Virus record (IMG/VR): IMGVR_UViG_3300046005_000250
Coordinates: 1 to 38,540 of that record
DNA length: 38,540 nucleotides
Source of the DNA: a virus
Direction: 5' to 3' (one strand)
The notes below the pieces were generated by a model, which saw nothing but the letters and a program-made list of their open reading frames with translations, did no database searches and was not told where the DNA came from. The translations under genes were made by a program, and so were the position numbers. This document shows positions 3,745 through 29,942 of the stretch, in pieces (position 1 is the first letter of the stretch; the number at the start of each line of letters is the position of its first letter).

Positions 3745-4118
3745 TGTGGTCTGTCTTATTTCCAGCTCTACTACCAGCTTTAACAGATGGTGTTCGTGGT
3801 ATCTTTGCTAAATTTACAAAAGGTGCAGGAGGTAATCCTGTCAATGTAGCTGAACGCATACAACTTATGCAAGCAGAGACAGCTCGCCTACAAGCACTAG
3901 CAGAGATAGATAAACCATCAGGTGAACCTTCTATTTGGGTTACTAACTTAAGGTCTAGCTTTAGGTATATTGCAATTATCATTATTTGGTTAGCGACAGT
4001 AAGTGCAGTATTTACTCCTTCAGTAGCTGAACCTATTACTCTAATTCTATTAGATTTAAGTGGAGCTTGTATGAGCTTCGTTATCGGTGAACGTATGTAT
4101 TTAACTTTAAGGAAATAA
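3744..4118 (+). CDS. Putative holin (3TM/GTA-holin-like)
   Basis: A 124-residue protein. An N-terminal amphipathic segment is followed by a helical region (RIQLMQAETARLQALAEID) and the phrase WVTNLRSSFRYIAIIIIWL. It then has one or two hydrophobic helices (about 75-92 and 96-113) and a short basic end. The pattern of a Gln/Ala-rich helix, a W/R motif and transmembrane segments resembles the Holin_3TMs family found beside endolysins in podoviruses. The call rests on topology and its overlap with the endolysin. Confidence 0.65.
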   Translation: MWSVLFPALLPALTDGVRGIFAKFTKGAGGNPVNVAERIQLMQAETARLQALAEIDKPSGEPSIWVTNLRSSFRYIAIIIIWLATVSAVFTPSVAEPITLILLDLSGACMSFVIGERMYLTLRK

Positions 4119-13634: not shown

Positions 13635-13653
13635 AAATGACCTCTAGAATCGA

Positions 13654-13719
13654 GCTACAACGCATTTAAATTATAGGTTGATGTACTTGTATCAAAATAT
13701 AGTCTAAACTCGTTGTAGC
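13654..13719. other. Inverted repeat in convergent intergenic region
   Basis: GCTACAACG at 13654-13662 is the exact reverse complement of CGTTGTAGC at 13711-13719, with a 48-nt AT-rich loop that holds a smaller TTGAT/ATCAA stem. It lies between the end of the rightward tail operon (13634) and the end of pqqA (13751). It may be a shared terminator or RNA-end structure, but there is no uridine run directly after either arm. Confidence 0.45.
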
Positions 13720-13750
13720 CCCTTCTAGTAGTGTCTATGACGATTTGACC

Positions 13751-13895: not shown

Positions 13896-13901
13896 CATAA
13901 A

Positions 13902-13935
13902 CTTATACTATACTAGTATTATAGCATAGTATAAG
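13902..13935. promoter_or_regulatory. 10-bp inverted repeat overlapping a candidate pqqA promoter
   Basis: CTTATACTAT (13902-13911) and ATAGTATAAG (13926-13935) form a perfect 10-bp stem with a 14-nt loop. On the minus strand the loop and arm contain TGCTATAAT (13926-13918), an extended -10 element that would drive pqqA with a leader of about 90 bases. No good -35 box is seen. The palindrome could be an operator, or the 3' end structure of the RNR operon. Confidence 0.5.
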
Positions 13936-13957
13936 CTTTTAGCACTACGTAAAAGTA

Positions 13958-19253: not shown

Positions 19254-19541
19254 CTAGAAGGGAACATCGTCATCTCCTAAAGAAGTATTATTAACTTCCG
19301 TGGTATTGACCCATTGTTCGTAACCTCTTTTATCTTCTTGAACCTCTACATCTACTTCGGTACCCTTAGTCCAGTTGCTTGCAGCTTTGTACACATGTTT
19401 GTTTTTCCAAGAGAATAGTCTCCAGGATTTAACTTGGTCCTCAGTATCTCTAAAGATAACTTCTATAGCTTGATACTCTAAGCCATTAGCTGCTTGATGG
19501 GCTGTGGGGGTACCTACATCCACAATTTTAATTCTAAGCAT
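19254..19541 (-). CDS. Putative OB-fold protein with SSB-type acidic tip
   Basis: A 95-residue beta-rich protein (KIVDVGTPT, LEYQAIEVIFRD, KSWRLFSWKNKHVY, GTEVDVEVQED), suggesting an OB fold. The last residues are LGDDDVPF, almost identical to the DDDIPF tip by which bacterial SSB recruits partners. Located just after the polymerase C-terminal half, overlapping it by eight bases. It may be a second SSB or a polymerase accessory protein; not recognised as a named family. Confidence 0.6.
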   Translation of the reverse strand: MLRIKIVDVGTPTAHQAANGLEYQAIEVIFRDTEDQVKSWRLFSWKNKHVYKAASNWTKGTEVDVEVQEDKRGYEQWVNTTEVNNTSLGDDDVPF

Positions 19542-20247
19542 TTACTTCCTCCATGTTGCCCCAATCAGGTCCTACTTCACACTGAACCCTCATAGGTAGG
19601 TTAAACTCTGTACCAAATATCTTTTTAAAGTTAGCTGGCACATCGTTGAAACAGTTATTAACTAACTGCACTAGACTAATATTATCCCATACTTTGGGAT
19701 CAAAGTCAAGTATTATTGAGTCGTGTACTGTGTTTACCATTAAGACTCCTTCTTTACCTTTTAATCTGTTACGTAGTGATACTCGAGCTAGAGCCATGAG
19801 ATCAGCACCTAGCCCCTGTACTGGATAATTAAGTATCTTAGTACGAGGGAACTTAACCTTACCATACTTAACCTCAGGCTCAAACTTATAGAATCTACCA
19901 GTAGGCATATCGATACGACCATCACGCATAGCACGTTCTAGCAGTTGATCATGCCATACCTTTAGTCCTGCGTACTTTTCGTAGAACTGGTCAATGACTC
20001 CTTGCCAGAACGTTTCATCTCCAATACTTGAGAAGTTAAGATCATTCGCATAAGAGTACGCTGATCCTCCGTAGATGAGTCGAAACACGAACGTTTTAGC
20101 AATAAGTCGACTTGGTAGTCCAAATCGCTGTTGGTTGTCTGCATGTTGGTCTACTCCTAAAAGAATCTCATCGATAGCTACTTGATCTTGACTTAAGTAT
20201 GTGGCTCCTACCCACTCTAATTGTTTAGCATCTGCTTGTAGTAACAT
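19534..20247 (-). CDS. DNA polymerase A, C-terminal (palm/fingers) part
   Basis: A 237-residue ORF with the catalytic core of a family A polymerase: motif A LLQADAKQLEWVGAT (Asp6), motif B RLIAKTFVFRLIYGG with the R-x3-K-x3-F-x3-YG spacing (Arg47, Lys51, Phe55, Tyr59), and motif C VNTVHDSI (His175, Asp176). It begins directly at motif A and lacks thumb and exonuclease, which are in the gene at 20300-21451. The ATG follows TAA of a 30-codon ORF (TAAATG) and has GGGAGG 11 bases upstream. Phe55 corresponds to Pol I Phe762. The two parts presumably assemble. Confidence 0.88.
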   Translation of the reverse strand: MLLQADAKQLEWVGATYLSQDQVAIDEILLGVDQHADNQQRFGLPSRLIAKTFVFRLIYGGSAYSYANDLNFSSIGDETFWQGVIDQFYEKYAGLKVWHDQLLERAMRDGRIDMPTGRFYKFEPEVKYGKVKFPRTKILNYPVQGLGADLMALARVSLRNRLKGKEGVLMVNTVHDSIILDFDPKVWDNISLVQLVNNCFNDVPANFKKIFGTEFNLPMRVQCEVGPDWGNMEEVNA

Positions 20248-20340
20248 TTAGTAGAGATCCTCCCATTGTCGTTCGATATAAATATCTTTCTCGTATGCAT
20301 CAAGTAAAGCGAGAATAGAATAAACCTTTGATTCCTCCAT
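20248..20340 (-). CDS. Possible 30-aa ORF bridging the split polymerase
   Basis: ATG at 20340 overlaps the last 41 bases of the polymerase N-terminal part in another frame and runs 30 codons to TAA immediately before the ATG of the C-terminal part (TAAATG). The peptide starts MEESKVYSILALLDAYEKD and ends RQWEDLY. It could couple translation of the two halves, be a small protein, or be remnant inserted DNA. A GGAG-like site before its ATG is not evident, so expression is uncertain. Confidence 0.4.
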   Translation of the reverse strand: MEESKVYSILALLDAYEKDIYIERQWEDLY

Positions 20341-21451
20341 CGAAGTTCTGCAAGTTTGGTTTACTGCTCGACAGTCGACCTGTCCTCGCAACGCATTGAT
20401 TAAGTTGTCCATGTATCTTGTTCTCCTTCCAGTTAAGTTCAGCTGATAACTTGAGTAAGCCTCTGTAGTACGTTGACACTCTCTTCTCTAAGTCAGACCT
20501 AGTGAGTAGTGTTTGAATAGCTTTTAGAGAGTGCTGGTTCCTACTCTTGAGAGACTTAAGTGTAGCCTCATCAGTAGAGAAGTAACCTTCTTTAGCTAAC
20601 TCTGAACCTCTAGGCGGAGTAAAGAGTCTAGGTAGTTCTACTTGGTAGTCTTCCCACTTTTCTTTTGCTTCTCCTTTACGAGCACCTGTCTTGTAAAAGC
20701 CAGCAGGAACTTTGCGAGAGAGTTTAATACTTCCACCATAAAGTAGACAGCTAAGGTGATCGCCACTATTGGGATTAAAACTATCACAGTTATGGTACTG
20801 ATAAAGCTCGTTATCCAACTCGACGATTTGTGCATCCAATTCATTTGCTAACTCCTCACTCTTTGTTGCGTTATATAATAGACCATTGTATTCCATTTCT
20901 TGTAGAACTAATAGATCTTGATTGTGTATACTGATTAGTCGCTGTAACTGTAACCCACCAGCTTTAACTTCCTCTAACTGTTTGAGATATACTTGGTACG
21001 TTAGATCTAAGTCACCCTGTAGATACTCTTCTAAGATAGATTTAGGTATGTCTGTAGTATCAATACCATTTTTCCAATATTCAGTACTAACCACATCAAG
21101 CTTAGTACCCAAACCATAATGAGCAGCCACCCCGTTAAGTGAGGGATAGCTGGTCGTCTGTCCAGATAGTATGAAGTGAACGAGCTGACAATCCCAAATA
21201 CGCTTAGAGCTAAAAGAAATTCCATATCTGTTTATCCAATGTAAGTCAAATTTAATATTAAACCCTATAAGTATATCACAATCATCAATCTTTTGTTGGA
21301 TCTCTTGAAGCTTAGGTACATAGGGATCATGAGAGTATTCTATATCGAATAGTTTATCTCCGATGCCTACATAGCATAGCTTGTTAGTCTGATCAAAAGG
21401 ATTACCTTTGTTAGAGATTGTTGTTTCTACGTCTAGTACTAACTCTTTCAT
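20300..21451 (-). CDS. DNA polymerase A, N-terminal (3'-5' exonuclease/thumb) part
   Basis: A 383-residue ORF. LVLDVETT gives exonuclease acids Asp7 and Glu9; LIGFNIKFDLHW is Exo II; YLQGDLDLTYQVY is Exo III. The end has the thumb/palm motif GRLSSSKPNLQN, then IKGLFYSRFT and stop, exactly where a normal polymerase would continue within a few residues into motif A. The C-terminal part starts 52 bases downstream. Ribosome site AAAGGA is five bases before ATG. Proofreading residues look intact. A split replicative polymerase is inferred; a sequencing frameshift does not easily explain a TGA, a gap and a new start. Confidence 0.88.
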   Translation of the reverse strand: MKELVLDVETTISNKGNPFDQTNKLCYVGIGDKLFDIEYSHDPYVPKLQEIQQKIDDCDILIGFNIKFDLHWINRYGISFSSKRIWDCQLVHFILSGQTTSYPSLNGVAAHYGLGTKLDVVSTEYWKNGIDTTDIPKSILEEYLQGDLDLTYQVYLKQLEEVKAGGLQLQRLISIHNQDLLVLQEMEYNGLLYNATKSEELANELDAQIVELDNELYQYHNCDSFNPNSGDHLSCLLYGGSIKLSRKVPAGFYKTGARKGEAKEKWEDYQVELPRLFTPPRGSELAKEGYFSTDEATLKSLKSRNQHSLKAIQTLLTRSDLEKRVSTYYRGLLKLSAELNWKENKIHGQLNQCVARTGRLSSSKPNLQNFDGGIKGLFYSRFT

Positions 21452-24128: not shown

Positions 24129-24908
24129 TTAATTTAAATAATCTTTGAAAGCTTGTGCATATTTTACTAACGTAGTTCCAGTAAGACCTGGAGCAGTGTT
24201 GACTTCGAATAAGAAGACTTTGTTGTCACGTTCACGATAACCAATGTCGACTGCACCAAAGTCTAGACCTAGAATCTTTACTGCTTGTATAGCAGCTTGC
24301 TCTATTTCTACTGGATAGTTAATGTCAGCACGAGCATAGACATAACCGTTAGAGTGATTACGAATACCTGTGTCACCACCAGTCCAATTAAGTCTACGTT
24401 TCTTTTGCTGAACATCTATGACCGACTCTCTGAATACATGAACACGATACTCATACTTATGTTTAGTACCAAGAGTATACAAGGGTGCCTCGACTAGATC
24501 AAGGATGTTCTTAGCTATTACTATACCACCTCCGCTGTGACTTGTCAAGGAAGTTCTACAATATATAGACTCCTTGCCTAATCGTTCGCCCCCTTCTGTA
24601 GCTATGTAGAGCATGTTAGATGCCTCATACCTAGAGGTACAATAGTTAGGTAGATAGGGATACTCATTCTCATACAGTAGATCAAAGGTCTTAAGCTTGT
24701 TACATGCAATAGCAATAGCACTGTGCTTATTGAGATCAGTCTCTACATAAGGCATACTCTCAGATAGACGAGAGTTGCCCCAGTTAATGATAATGTCTCT
24801 ACGCTTGGCTTCGTAACTAGAACGAACTCGTCGAACTCCAAGTGATTGAGCTAGGGATCGAGCTGACAACGATCCCATCTTGTAGGGAAACACTTTGAGA
24901 AACTTCAT
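24129..24908 (-). CDS. ATP-grasp ligase-like protein
   Basis: A 259-residue protein with ATP-grasp features: NCYC-like N-lobe with INWGNS (41-46), CNKLKTF (69-75), a glycine loop SHSGGGIV (123-130), YRVHVF (154-159), GLDFGAVDIGY (214-224) and the metal-binding FEVNTAPGL (234-242). Such enzymes activate a carboxylate with ATP and join it to an amine. The strong AAGGAG site, seven bases before ATG 24908, fixes the start even though it lies 92 bases inside the upstream gene. Together with the amidoligase and glutaminase genes upstream it forms an amide-bond cassette. Substrate unknown. Confidence 0.85.
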   Translation of the reverse strand: MKFLKVFPYKMGSLSARSLAQSLGVRRVRSSYEAKRRDIIINWGNSRLSESMPYVETDLNKHSAIAIACNKLKTFDLLYENEYPYLPNYCTSRYEASNMLYIATEGGERLGKESIYCRTSLTSHSGGGIVIAKNILDLVEAPLYTLGTKHKYEYRVHVFRESVIDVQQKKRRLNWTGGDTGIRNHSNGYVYARADINYPVEIEQAAIQAVKILGLDFGAVDIGYRERDNKVFLFEVNTAPGLTGTTLVKYAQAFKDYLN

Positions 24909-25281
24909 TTGCTTGCTCCTTTTGTTTTAGTTTAGCTAACTGACGTATCTTGAATCTAGTCTCCATCTGTTTAATCTTGATGGCAATACCACGTAACCTA
25001 GGATCATCAGGTAAAGGGTTAGCCTTAATGTCTAGAGTAATAGGACCTAACTTAGCTTCGTATGCATCTAGGTTATATCCTCGTGAACTAAGACAGATAC
25101 CACCACATGTGTGGAAGTTTTGCTTATCTTCATGATCCCATTCAATAGATACTATGCCAGCATAGCCTCTATCTGGATGGAACTTAAGGATAGTGCCTGT
25201 CATACCTGCTATGAATGATGTACCATCATACTCAAAGTCTTCAGTTACTACAAGTCTTTCACCTTTATTAAATTCTAACAT
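24817..25281 (-). CDS. Hypothetical 154-aa protein of the amidoligase cassette
   Basis: The N-terminal 90 residues look like a small beta barrel (GERLVVTEDFEYDGTSF, then GMTGTILKFHP and YAGIVSIEWDHE), perhaps SH3-like. A charged helix (IAIKIKQMETRFKIRQLAKL) follows, then a Ser/Val-rich tail encoded in the 92-base overlap with the ATP-grasp gene. It sits between the amidotransferase and the ATP-grasp gene, so it may be a partner or substrate carrier; I do not recognise the family. Confidence 0.65.
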   Translation of the reverse strand: MLEFNKGERLVVTEDFEYDGTSFIAGMTGTILKFHPDRGYAGIVSIEWDHEDKQNFHTCGGICLSSRGYNLDAYEAKLGPITLDIKANPLPDDPRLRGIAIKIKQMETRFKIRQLAKLKQKEQANEVSQSVSLQDGIVVSSIPSSITWSSTSSF

Positions 25282-25283
25282 GA

Positions 25284-26192
25284 TTAGATTACTCCATAAG
25301 GATAAATAACTACTGGTTCTACTGGTGCCTCATAATCTTCTTCTAACAACTCAATGTCCATGAACTTGACATTGTAGAGGAAGTTAGGAACATCAGAGTT
25401 CTCATCAGCTGAGTCAGCCATTAAGTCTACTGAGTAGTCACGATTAACTGCAACGATCTCCCATACAGAATCTTTAGGGAAGTAAGACTTAGTGCCTGCA
25501 TCATACTGTCCACTAAGCAGAGTCACTAACTCACCTAGTGCTATGTTCTCTTTCTTGTAAGCCCATGTTTGTTTGTTATCGTAGTAACGATTAGTTAACA
25601 AAGAAGCTTGACGAGTTGGATAATATGTGCTAGGTGGTGGTGGAACATATGGTGGTGGTTTCTTGTAACTAGAATTAGAATACCACACATCGTTATCCCA
25701 TACACCCTTGTCTTCATTAAAGATCTTAGTATTACCTGTGTTATCCATAAAGATTAACTTAGAGTAACCGATACGAGCCTCGATAAGTTTTTGTATAGGG
25801 TCTTGGAATAAACCTAAGTTGCCCCACTTGTCAACGAATGGTTGTAGTATATCCTCATTGAATAACCAAGTGTCAGACTTAGCTGGATCAGTATACCCTG
25901 AGATCATACCATTGTGAACGAATGCAAAGTTGTCATTGATCTTGTATGGATGACAGTTAGCCTCATTGATTAAGCCATGTGTCTTGATACGGAAATGTAT
26001 CACACACTCTTTCTTCTTATCACGACGATATGATTTCCAGAAGTCAGCGAAAGAGAAGAAACCTTTCTTGACATACAGCTTACCATTCTTGTGGAACATA
26101 TAGCCAGCACCATCAGAGTTAGCTTTGTAACACTGAGCTAGAGTTTCTTGAGGAATGTCAATACCCTCTGGTTTATAAATAGCGATACACAT
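25284..26192 (-). CDS. Class II glutamine amidotransferase (Ntn hydrolase)
   Basis: A 302-residue protein beginning Met-Cys, so removal of Met exposes the catalytic N-terminal Cys. The family motifs follow in order: HFRIKTHG (66-73), CHPYKI, FVHNGMISGY (91-100) and SDTWLF (106-111). It should release ammonia from glutamine. A proline-rich linker (about 174-184) leads to a C-terminal part with a beta-rich domain (about 215-290). Its ATG overlaps the amidoligase stop (TAATG), so the two are probably made together and ammonia or an amine is passed between them. Confidence 0.88.
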   Translation of the reverse strand: MCIAIYKPEGIDIPQETLAQCYKANSDGAGYMFHKNGKLYVKKGFFSFADFWKSYRRDKKKECVIHFRIKTHGLINEANCHPYKINDNFAFVHNGMISGYTDPAKSDTWLFNEDILQPFVDKWGNLGLFQDPIQKLIEARIGYSKLIFMDNTGNTKIFNEDKGVWDNDVWYSNSSYKKPPPYVPPPPSTYYPTRQASLLTNRYYDNKQTWAYKKENIALGELVTLLSGQYDAGTKSYFPKDSVWEIVAVNRDYSVDLMADSADENSDVPNFLYNVKFMDIELLEEDYEAPVEPVVIYPYGVI

Positions 26193-27745
26193 TATGCGAA
26201 TCCTTTCAAGCAGTTAGATAATTCAGGATATGATTTACGATTGTTAAGGACCCAATGCATAAAGCTACGATGTCCTGTAAGTTGTTTGAGTGGCATATTA
26301 ACTTGAGCTGGTTGACAGTAGTCAGTCAACGCTTGACAGAACTCTAGTCTAGCAGAGAACTCTTCCCAATTCTTAGGTGTGCTAAAGATACGGAACTCAA
26401 TAGTATCACGATTAGATAAGTTAAGTGCATTGTATCGTTCACCTTGTTGCCCATTGATGAATGGGAAGGTAACAGATCGACCAGTAATTCTAGCATACTG
26501 ATTGTCGATACGACCAGCAATGTGAGCAATGAATGACTTGTTATCCATACGATTAAGGAACTCAGTCATCTTACCAATAGTAAATACATTGAGAGGCTTG
26601 CGACTCACATGCACATGCATACCTGTGTTCTTGTCAGGGAATAGACCAAGAGAACCATATGAACTATAGAACTTCTTGAACTCCTCAAGGTGAATGTCTA
26701 GAGTAGCAGGACAAGTAACAATCTCAAAGCCATTCTTGATAGAGCCATCAGCTTTCATAATGGCATGACCCTGTAAAGCTTTACCTACCTTGATCTTAGA
26801 TACATCACGATCAGAAGACTCATACTCTAACTCTATACCTAGATATACAGTAGAAGGTTTAACATTCTTAGCTTTGAACTTAAGAAGCTCAGGAACTTTG
26901 GTGCTGTAGTTGTGTATCTTGTATAGATTCTCATTACACTTGTGACATGCCCCATCTATGATAGATAAGTCAGGAACCTCACGATGACACACTGGACACT
27001 CACACATAGTAACTTCACTACGTTTGTATACCCTACCTTGGATAAGACACTCGTCATCCCGTAAGAATATGTAACCGTGTTGATACTCGTGACGATTGAA
27101 TCCAAAATCTGTAGGAGAATTAGCACCATGAACCTGACGAATACCCTCAGAGAACTGATAACCTCTACCTAAGTAGTATGGGAATACTCCCCCTGTCAAG
27201 TGGCATTTGAATAGTTCTATGTTAAACATACTACTCATGTAAGCTACAAGAGCACCAGCATCTGCAATTATTACTTCAGGTTGAGCAGCTATACAATGAT
27301 TAAGTAATTCATGAGTGTATCCACTTTTACACCATCTTTCAGAATTTAAACGCTTGGATACTTGTTTATAGATACCCTTACGAATAGTCCCATTCTTTGA
27401 GAATAGTTTAACTGGATTAGATTTGTAATACATAGCATCTACTGTAGCATTCTCACCATCCCAACTGTTACGGATGTGGACTAGCCCAGCTGCTGCTGAT
27501 ACTGTAGAATTGTAATCACGAATCCAGCCTTGATTGCTGACTGAGAATACATGATACCATTCTTCATTGATGATAGTCATACTACTAGTAAGAGATAGCG
27601 CACTACCTTTGACATAGTATCTCTTAAGAGTTACTTCTCTACCATAACTGTTGAATCCCTCTTCTATCTCCATCTTAAAGTCTGGATGTAGATTGGGTAT
27701 TTCACATCTGTTTTTAACGAACTGGCTGTGGGTAAACGGTCTCAT
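26192..27745 (-). CDS. Amidoligase (COOH-NH2 ligase, glutamine-synthetase-like fold)
   Basis: A 517-residue protein. Residues 1-240 are unassigned. A zinc ribbon uses Cys250, Cys253, Cys267 and Cys270. The amidoligase domain follows: GIELEYE (303-309), KADGSIKNGFEIVTCP (331-346), GMHVHVSR (375-382) and RYNALNL...IEFRIF (437-454). These correspond to the ATP- and metal-binding acids and His of the amidoligase_2 family. Phages encode it with amidotransferases and ATP-grasp enzymes in proposed peptide or cell-wall modification systems (Iyer and Aravind's amidoligase work). AAGGAG precedes the ATG. Target unknown. Confidence 0.88.
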   Translation of the reverse strand: MRPFTHSQFVKNRCEIPNLHPDFKMEIEEGFNSYGREVTLKRYYVKGSALSLTSSMTIINEEWYHVFSVSNQGWIRDYNSTVSAAAGLVHIRNSWDGENATVDAMYYKSNPVKLFSKNGTIRKGIYKQVSKRLNSERWCKSGYTHELLNHCIAAQPEVIIADAGALVAYMSSMFNIELFKCHLTGGVFPYYLGRGYQFSEGIRQVHGANSPTDFGFNRHEYQHGYIFLRDDECLIQGRVYKRSEVTMCECPVCHREVPDLSIIDGACHKCNENLYKIHNYSTKVPELLKFKAKNVKPSTVYLGIELEYESSDRDVSKIKVGKALQGHAIMKADGSIKNGFEIVTCPATLDIHLEEFKKFYSSYGSLGLFPDKNTGMHVHVSRKPLNVFTIGKMTEFLNRMDNKSFIAHIAGRIDNQYARITGRSVTFPFINGQQGERYNALNLSNRDTIEFRIFSTPKNWEEFSARLEFCQALTDYCQPAQVNMPLKQLTGHRSFMHWVLNNRKSYPELSNCLKGFA

Positions 27746-28550: not shown

Positions 28551-28629
28551 ATATGACCGTCTCTTTCTCTCTCTACAATTAATAGATAACTCGTTAGAGA
28601 GAACCGAAGTCCTCTCCAACTTAGCGTGA

Positions 28630-28866
28630 TTAGGCTGTAGTGCCATTACTGCGTTCACGAGCTTCAGCTAACTTCTTTGCTTTCGCACGGATGTCTGTCA
28701 CTTCGTCACGAGCATCCATTAGCTCTTGGAACAGAGGAGATTTGTAGCGAAGCATAGTAGCTAACGCATCACCGAGTAACTGTTCTGCTAGGTATAGTTT
28801 AAGTCCGCTGTTAGCGTTCTCCATTACTTTGTTGTATTCATTGAAATCAAATTGCTGTGTTGCCAT
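28630..28866 (-). CDS. 78-aa protein of inverted gene pair (left copy)
   Basis: First gene of the leftward operon. ATG 28866 has AAGGAG seven bases ahead. The 78-residue helical protein starts MATQQFDFNEYNKVMENANS and contains LAEQLLGDALATMLRYKSPL and a Lys/Ala-rich end (RAKAKKLAEARE). A diverged copy lies in inverted orientation at 29097-29351, with both DNA flanks also conserved. Base use is less AT-rich than neighbours. I do not recognise the family. Being first in the early operon suggests a takeover or regulatory role. Confidence 0.7.
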   Translation of the reverse strand: MATQQFDFNEYNKVMENANSGLKLYLAEQLLGDALATMLRYKSPLFQELMDARDEVTDIRAKAKKLAEARERSNGTTA

Positions 28867-28907
28867 GGTAGTTCTCCTTAGTTAATGTGGCGGTTGCCAC
28901 AGCTGTT

Positions 28908-29055
28908 AGAAACACAAAGACGAGGCGATGTCAGGTGATCTAGCCTTAGCAGGCTGCTGAGACGTAGAACAATGGCGTGCCTTTTCGACATTGTTCTAGG
29001 TCTCTTGCAGATGCTTAGGCTAGAGCACTTGATGTTGACTCGGCTTTGTGTTTCT
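28908..29055. other. 67-bp imperfect hairpin at the centre of the inverted duplication
   Basis: Arm 28908-28974 and arm 28989-29055 are each 67 bases with a 14-base loop (28975-28988). They pair at 51 of 67 positions without any gap, and several mismatches would be G-U in RNA. Both ends pair perfectly (AGAAACACAA outside, TAGAACAATG inside, apart from the intervening differences). It holds no gene. It could be a replication or transcription control element. Confidence 0.8.
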
Positions 29056-29096
29056 ATCAGCGAATTGGGGCGACCGCAACATTAACTTAGGAGAAC

Positions 29097-29351
29097 TTGG
29101 CAACACAGCAATTTGGTTTCAATGAATGCGCTTACAACGAAGTAATGGAGAAGGATAACGGTGGTTACTTAAACTTCCTAGCAGAGCAGTTACTCGGTGT
29201 TGCGATTAGCTACATGCTTCGCTACAAATCTGCTCTGTTCCAAGATAAAGCTAATGAGATGATCGTGATGAAGTGGCAGAGATACGATGCGAAAGCTAAG
29301 AAGTTAGTTGAAGCTCGAGGGTTGAACGCAGTAATGGCACGGAATGCCTAA
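29097..29351 (+). CDS. 84-aa inverted paralogue (right copy, possibly degenerate)
   Basis: Diverged copy of the 78-aa gene, facing the other way: shares MATQQF-FNE, AEQLLG, MLRYKS-LFQ and AKAKKL-EAR. The left copy's ATG region is changed: four bases are missing, leaving TTG only three bases after AGGAG. The last nine codons (LNAVMARNA) are in a shifted frame relative to the left copy after a five-base insertion. No rightward promoter is seen upstream, while the leftward promoter at 29837 would transcribe its antisense. It may be a decaying copy or conserved for structure. Confidence 0.45.
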   Translation: MATQQFGFNECAYNEVMEKDNGGYLNFLAEQLLGVAISYMLRYKSALFQDKANEMIVMKWQRYDAKAKKLVEARGLNAVMARNA

Positions 29352-29836
29352 GCACGCTAAGTTGGTGAAGAGGACTCGGTTATCTCTAACGAGTTATCTC
29401 TCTATAAAATTACTTTAAACAACAACAACTTATCTAGATATTAATACAGCTACTAAATACCTATAGAGGTACCACACTACACATATCTTCTTCACCTAAC
29501 AGCAGAGACAACATGAACAGCATGAGCAACAGAGACAATGCTACTTAACATTGACTTCGTTACTAGGTCACACTACTAGATCAACATAGGGGGGGGGTGT
29601 ATATAGCACGGATGTGGATTTTAATGATGTATCACAACACACACAACAAAGGGTAAAATAGAACGTATCCGCATAATGTGGTATCTATAGGCTAGAACGA
29701 AGTGGAAAGAAAGGAGGGAAGTAGAGGTGATATAGACTATATCGATCTGCGACATTACTACTTAGTAGAAATCTCTTTCTATTTTAAAACAGGAGTTTTT
29801 AGAAGTAGAGTTTCTCTAATTGATCAATATAAGAAT
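29352..29836. other. Long non-coding leader region
   Basis: About 480 bases with no supportable gene on either strand. On the minus strand it would be the 5' leader of the leftward early transcript. Notable content: end of the inverted duplication (to about 29403), repeats of CAGAGACAA near 29510-29555, a G9 tract (29589-29597), purine-rich GGAAAGAAAGGAGGGAAG near 29710, and several short stems. No tRNA was found. Confidence 0.6.
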
Positions 29837-29865
29837 ATTATATCATATTTCTAATCTAAAGTCAA
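29837..29865 (-). promoter_or_regulatory. Leftward early promoter
   Basis: On the minus strand TTGACT (29865-29860), 17-bp spacer, TATAAT (29842-29837). It faces left toward the replication operon; its -35 box is 48 bp from that of the rightward promoter. The first gene ATG (28866) is about 960 bases downstream, leaving a long structured leader. Confidence 0.88.
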
Positions 29866-29913: not shown

Positions 29914-29942
29914 TTGACTTTTAAAATCTTCTGTGTTATAAT
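29914..29942 (+). promoter_or_regulatory. Rightward promoter for packaging/head operon
   Basis: TTGACT at 29914-29919, 17-bp spacer, TATAAT at 29937-29942. Shares TTGACTTTTAAA with the promoter at 34682. It drives the HNH-like, terminase and portal genes starting at 30006. Confidence 0.9.

Follow-up and report, generated by a model that had tools for sequence, protein, structure and literature searches.

A phage gene held in a conserved, co-evolving quasi-palindrome with a non-coding mirror of itself

Why would a phage keep a gene paired with its own inverted copy? In bacterial replicons long palindromes are normally expected to be lost, and a gene that codes for protein should be hard to keep bound to its mirror image. 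Here, instead, the two have diverged together, as distinct contigs of uncultured phages show. The sequence studied, a 38,540-base virus record from IMG/VR, is referred to in its entirety as the window. Its palindrome is a natural system in which to ask how far a long hairpin is maintained by selection and how far by template switching, and it draws attention to a structured locus conserved in a phage group that is abundant and has no close cultured relative.

Geometry and fold of the quasi-palindrome

The original prediction, made by reading the letters, was of an inverted duplication of a gene together with its flanks. Self-alignment of the window bore this out, giving an 816-bp inverted repeat at 28584–29399, centered near 28981.5, with 81% arm identity over 854 columns (E=0). 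No other inverted repeat in the 38.5-kb record comes close to it in strength. The left arm (28584–28977, – strand), conserved in 10 relatives, carries the gene, and the right arm (28986–29399, + strand) is the reverse complement of the gene, its leader and its 3' flank. The arms run unbroken down to an 8-nt apical loop (28978–28985), which lies between innermost 19-nt arms at 28959–28977 and 28986–29004. Folded as a single strand, the element reached –512 kcal/mol, whereas shuffled sequences averaged –209 (z=–47).

The gene (28630–28866, – strand) encodes a 78-aa protein predicted to be all-helical, with three helices. It belongs to no Pfam or PHROG family, no homologue was found in bacterial genomes, and a search of solved structures gave no significant match; structure searching matched only uncharacterized phage proteins. 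Among close relatives the protein is conserved at 90–100% amino acid identity and the gene arm is free of gaps. The ribosome-binding site sits within the predicted duplex.

The palindrome had been placed exactly where the leftward and rightward gene blocks part. That placement needs correction, since a pair of strong divergent promoter-like sites lies 440–540 bp to the right of the palindrome, which puts it within the leader and first gene of the leftward unit. Both sites read TTGACT-17-TATAAT with a TG (11/12 matches) and are conserved. The leftward one (29837–29865, – strand) would transcribe the mirror arm and then the gene arm, and the rightward one (29914–29942, + strand) reads away from the palindrome. 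The pair was present in every palindrome-bearing relative scanned, and in the sister phages described below.

Conservation among relatives

A protein search with the 78-aa gene led to 11 contigs, 10 close and one distant (L011), and further searches returned the same 11. All 10 of the IMG/VR contigs with a close homologue carry the palindrome, as the same arrangement, with arms 77–85% alike. Two pairs of these contigs are identical over the palindrome (L006 and L007, L009 and L010), leaving nine distinct palindrome sequences including the window, eight besides it. The distant homologue in L011, at 52% amino acid identity, is present without the palindrome. Another contig, L088, known as a terminase relative, begins inside the loop.

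The original prediction also held that both frames stay open, the right copy having a damaged start and a shifted C-terminus. For the window this is correct: the mirror copy has lost its ATG, its C-terminus is shifted, and what remains is an 84-aa frame open only from a TTG (29097–29351, + strand). Among relatives the right-hand frame is not conserved as a frame. The alignment showed the mirror ATG missing in eight of the nine distinct genomes, and a six-frame search found stops or frameshifts in most relatives, so that the pair does not consist of two copies each with an open, constrained frame. The mirror arm, judged from these sequences, is a non-coding pairing partner of the gene and behaves as such, rather than as the duplicated gene that had been proposed.

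These observations leave very little room for a plain duplication with two functional divergent copies, or for an assembly artifact. The frames open in the window would fit two genes, but most relatives have the mirror stops, frameshifts and lost start. Misassembly, raised earlier as the alternative, is ruled out by the ten further contigs that span the structure.

Co-variation between the arms

The arms of this real and conserved duplication also co-evolve. The two arms of each genome were aligned with strand-neutral scoring. In the gene region, 29 of the 30 columns that vary in the gene arm vary in the mirror too (Fisher p∼1e-18), and 244 of the 270 cells at gene-variable columns are Watson-Crick. 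Counted on a fixed structure, 45 pairs are altered on both sides, compared with 26.7±2.8 after shuffling and 5–8 when the partners were slid. Covariation exceeding both shuffled and shifted partners is the pattern of a structured non-coding RNA. In many columns two or three kinds of Watson-Crick pair occur and no mismatch does.

In a tree of all arms, the mirror arms cluster together and the gene arms cluster together, with parallel topologies. This grouping by arm type indicates a single old inverted duplication whose arms co-evolved, as far as the sequences tell, without wholesale homogenization. Fixed mismatches and bulges persist between the covarying columns; eight or more of the nine genomes share 14 fixed unpaired features, and many mirror-only mismatches persist as well. 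Retention of the palindrome had been taken to suggest selection, a fair reading for a structure kept in every close relative with compensatory change. Because the mirror changed in step with the gene and the two still pair, the comparison suggests that the hairpin itself may do a job.

Codon positions give some idea of how the arms change. Of the 32 mirror-only columns, 21 face first or second codon positions, at which the gene is seldom free to follow, and 19 of 29 double changes fall at codon position 3. This pattern would fit a drifting mirror with the gene compensating where the code allows, and is compatible with short template switches. Transversions make up about half of the double changes, and there are hardly any gene-only changes; template switching explains both features as well. 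Some double changes are clustered (columns 818–821, 793–794 and 714–715).

Could such copying maintain the palindrome without any function for the hairpin? Template switching would copy arm to arm (quasi-palindrome correction), and selection would only stop full closure of the leftward mRNA, leaving A.C, C.C, A.A and C.U mismatches. The process has been documented to cause compensatory changes of several bases at once (PMC8794818) and has been proposed for the coding palindromes of Nematomorpha (PMC6649704); here the clustered double changes and the scarcity of gene-only changes agree with it. Working against it, the arms cluster by arm type rather than by genome, and the 14 fixed unpaired features and the lasting mirror-only mismatches would confine any such copying to short tracts (median 40 nt, shortest 4). 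Moreover, the nematomorph palindromes for which conversion was proposed are essentially perfect, and the phage arms are not. We consider upkeep without function rather unlikely. A diversity-generating retroelement was rejected as a source of the variation; the changes are not confined to adenines, and there was no reverse transcriptase among the proteins searched.

Strand asymmetry of residual mismatches

An A.C mismatch on either strand reads as G.U on the opposite one, and the leftover mismatches therefore bear on which strand is selected. Read on the + strand, antisense to the gene, the mismatches are of the more stable types G.U, U.U, G.A or G.G in 79 columns and of the less stable types A.C, A.A, C.U or C.C in 27 (p=4e-7, a value that assumes independent columns, an assumption incompletely satisfied by related genomes). 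The G.U to A.C ratio is 26:6 columns on the + strand and is reversed on the gene-sense strand, with A.C in 26 and G.U in 6. By part, the asymmetry is 32:5 in the leader and 42:11 in the gene, but it does not extend to the outermost 3' flank (5:11). Mirror-only changes follow suit, with 10 G.U and 1 A.C on the + strand.

A strand mutation bias is an unlikely cause of this asymmetry, because the adjacent non-palindromic flank has no comparable bias (83 changes from A/C to G/T, 68 in reverse, with A+C at least 53%). The asymmetry of the leftover mismatches suggests instead that a + strand hairpin, of RNA or of single-stranded DNA, is most likely what selection preserves. The same asymmetry could equally be read as selection for a leftward mRNA that stays open at those places.

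This bears on a further explanation, in which a leader transcript from 29837 pairs the mirror with the gene and hides the ribosome-binding site, so that the 78-aa protein is made only from an internal or processed transcript lacking the mirror. The conserved leftward promoter-like site does put the mirror and then the gene in one transcript, and the ribosome-binding site is inside the duplex. Pairing on the leftward strand, however, should tolerate G.U and remove A.C, and the opposite is seen (6 versus 26 columns); nor was a convincing internal promoter recognized. We regard a leader RNA of this kind as improbable.

Folding energies were less useful. DNA folding energy is lower on the + strand in nine of nine distinct genomes, but control windows elsewhere in the genome show strand differences of nearly the size of that of the palindrome (–48 to +33 kcal/mol). 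With controls differing by up to 48 kcal/mol between strands, we dropped the comparison as proof.

RNA or single-stranded DNA

The reading we lean toward, with somewhat less than even confidence, is of a conserved quasi-palindromic hairpin, composed of a coding gene and a non-coding mirror, whose + strand acts as a rod-shaped RNA. In an ancestor, the 78-aa gene, its leader and its 3' flank would have been copied and inverted; the inverted copy would then have lost its coding role and been retained as the pairing partner of the gene. The product would be a rod of ∼800 nt, with ∼350 base pairs and fixed bulges. The selected molecule would be a single strand equal to the + strand of the window, antisense to the gene, probably a long rod-shaped antisense or leader RNA near the parting of the transcription units. 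Such an RNA may keep the 78-aa gene under control, serve as a structural RNA, or both. We infer RNA rather than DNA, as we do the function of the hairpin.

Counting against a + strand RNA, the conserved leftward promoter-like site would make the other strand. No conserved sigma70-type promoter for a + strand RNA across the palindrome was found in the palindrome-bearing relatives and sister phages scanned.

The + strand might act instead as single-stranded DNA, folding during replication or concatemer processing and being recognized by phage enzymes, with the gene as a passenger. G.T, G.G and G.A are stable mismatches in DNA as well, so the strand signal fits single-stranded DNA too, as do the lower + strand DNA folding energies in all nine genomes and the unseen + strand promoter. 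The phage also encodes a Phage_endo_I homologue, PolA, a helicase and a primase. There is moreover a precedent in the hairpin end of the T7 concatemer, reportedly described by Chung et al. in 1990. That structure resembles ours as a hairpin on phage DNA, in a phage whose replication genes are in part comparable (PolA, endonuclease I); it differs in that the palindrome here is long and gene-bearing and comes without evidence of genome ends. Genome ends were indeed not located here, the contig ends of four long relatives falling at unrelated places when a G tract was used as the reference. The arms also exceed by far the length that a hairpin end should require, covering the whole gene, and in sister phages no long palindrome occurs there. 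A DNA-level hairpin is a serious contender that we still judge unlikely.

The G tract just mentioned is a single-copy run after ATA (ATAG7-12; 29586–29597, + strand, with the G tract at 29589–29597), 190 bp to the right of the palindrome. Most relatives whose contigs extend far enough upstream of terminase have it, and it could mark a terminus, an origin or a transcript start.

A different element in sister phages

Sister phages that lack the 78-aa gene have no long palindrome at this site. At the same locus they carry a different covarying structured element, in which 25 of 90 pairs show two Watson-Crick types among five sequences; its consensus energy is –57 on the + strand versus –40 on the –. 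The sister loci lie at 4050–4500 in L059, 4080–4535 in L063, 3600–4330 in L062 and 3700–4415 in L050, and share a conserved loop, GTCACACTCAAACACAATCTATAA. In more distant relatives such structure is weak or absent. Neither the window nor the sister loci gave an Rfam match. Palindromes of 60–226 bp upstream of other terminases were low-complexity AT repeats where read, and were dropped.

Taken most broadly, the favored + strand reading would make this a new kind of phage element in which a protein gene and its non-coding mirror, evolving together, form one ∼400-bp hairpin. The strand antisense to the gene would be the active one, as a very large rod-shaped RNA (or single-stranded DNA), and the hairpin would be one of several interchangeable large structured elements that the phage group maintains near the parting of the transcription units. 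We offer this wider proposal tentatively, as possible but on balance doubtful.

Comparison with known systems

No described family fits the element; each of the nearest precedents shares one feature and fails another. Certain mitochondrial genes of Nematomorpha contain long coding inverted repeats that are perfect, with both arms coding (PMC6649704). These resemble the phage element in being long, in including protein-coding sequence and in being actively maintained, but they come and go between species, whereas the phage element keeps a fixed place in close relatives, has arms only 77–85% alike and codes on one arm, the other being non-coding. Template switching maintains the short hairpin stems of known RNA genes (PMC8794818), likewise through compensatory, partly multi-base changes in the stem halves; the phage stem, by contrast, is ∼400 bp, holds a protein gene and keeps fixed mismatches. 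GOLLD, ROOL and OLE, ornate RNAs of bacteria and phages (PMC12286853), are also large, structured and covarying, and some occur in phage-related DNA. Their folds are ornate, whereas the phage element is a simple rod with a coding gene and is without an Rfam match. A literature search for long phage palindromes or hairpin RNAs of this type found none.

Genome context

The first 107 bases of the record are found again at its 3' end, a terminal repeat from which the phage genome appears to be circular in effect, at 38.4 kb. No close cultured relative was found by DNA or protein search. The best terminase matches were at ∼28–42%, and IMG/VR yielded 516 terminase matches. The rightward block encodes terminase, portal, capsid and tail proteins. 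The leftward block (14.1–28.9 kb) encodes ribonucleotide reductase, exonuclease, helicase, primase, endonuclease I and, in two frames, DNA polymerase A. The cumulative GC-skew minimum is at ∼29 kb, the same place as the switch in gene orientation, and hence is not independent evidence for the origin or master control element that the original prediction suggested there.

The split DNA polymerase A (19534–21451, – strand) consists of frames of 383 and 237 aa that match adjoining parts of phrog_17. The 383-aa part is also a separate open frame in four relatives, at 386–404 aa. Elsewhere in the leftward block, a gene cluster (24129–27745, – strand) matches phrog_2599 (ribosomal protein S6 glutaminyl transferase) and Amidoligase_2, and glutamine amidotransferase weakly; from these matches it is a possible phage peptide-ligating gene set. 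Where the two transcription units converge there are two imperfect palindromes (13644–13728 and 13899–13938), possibly bidirectional terminators.
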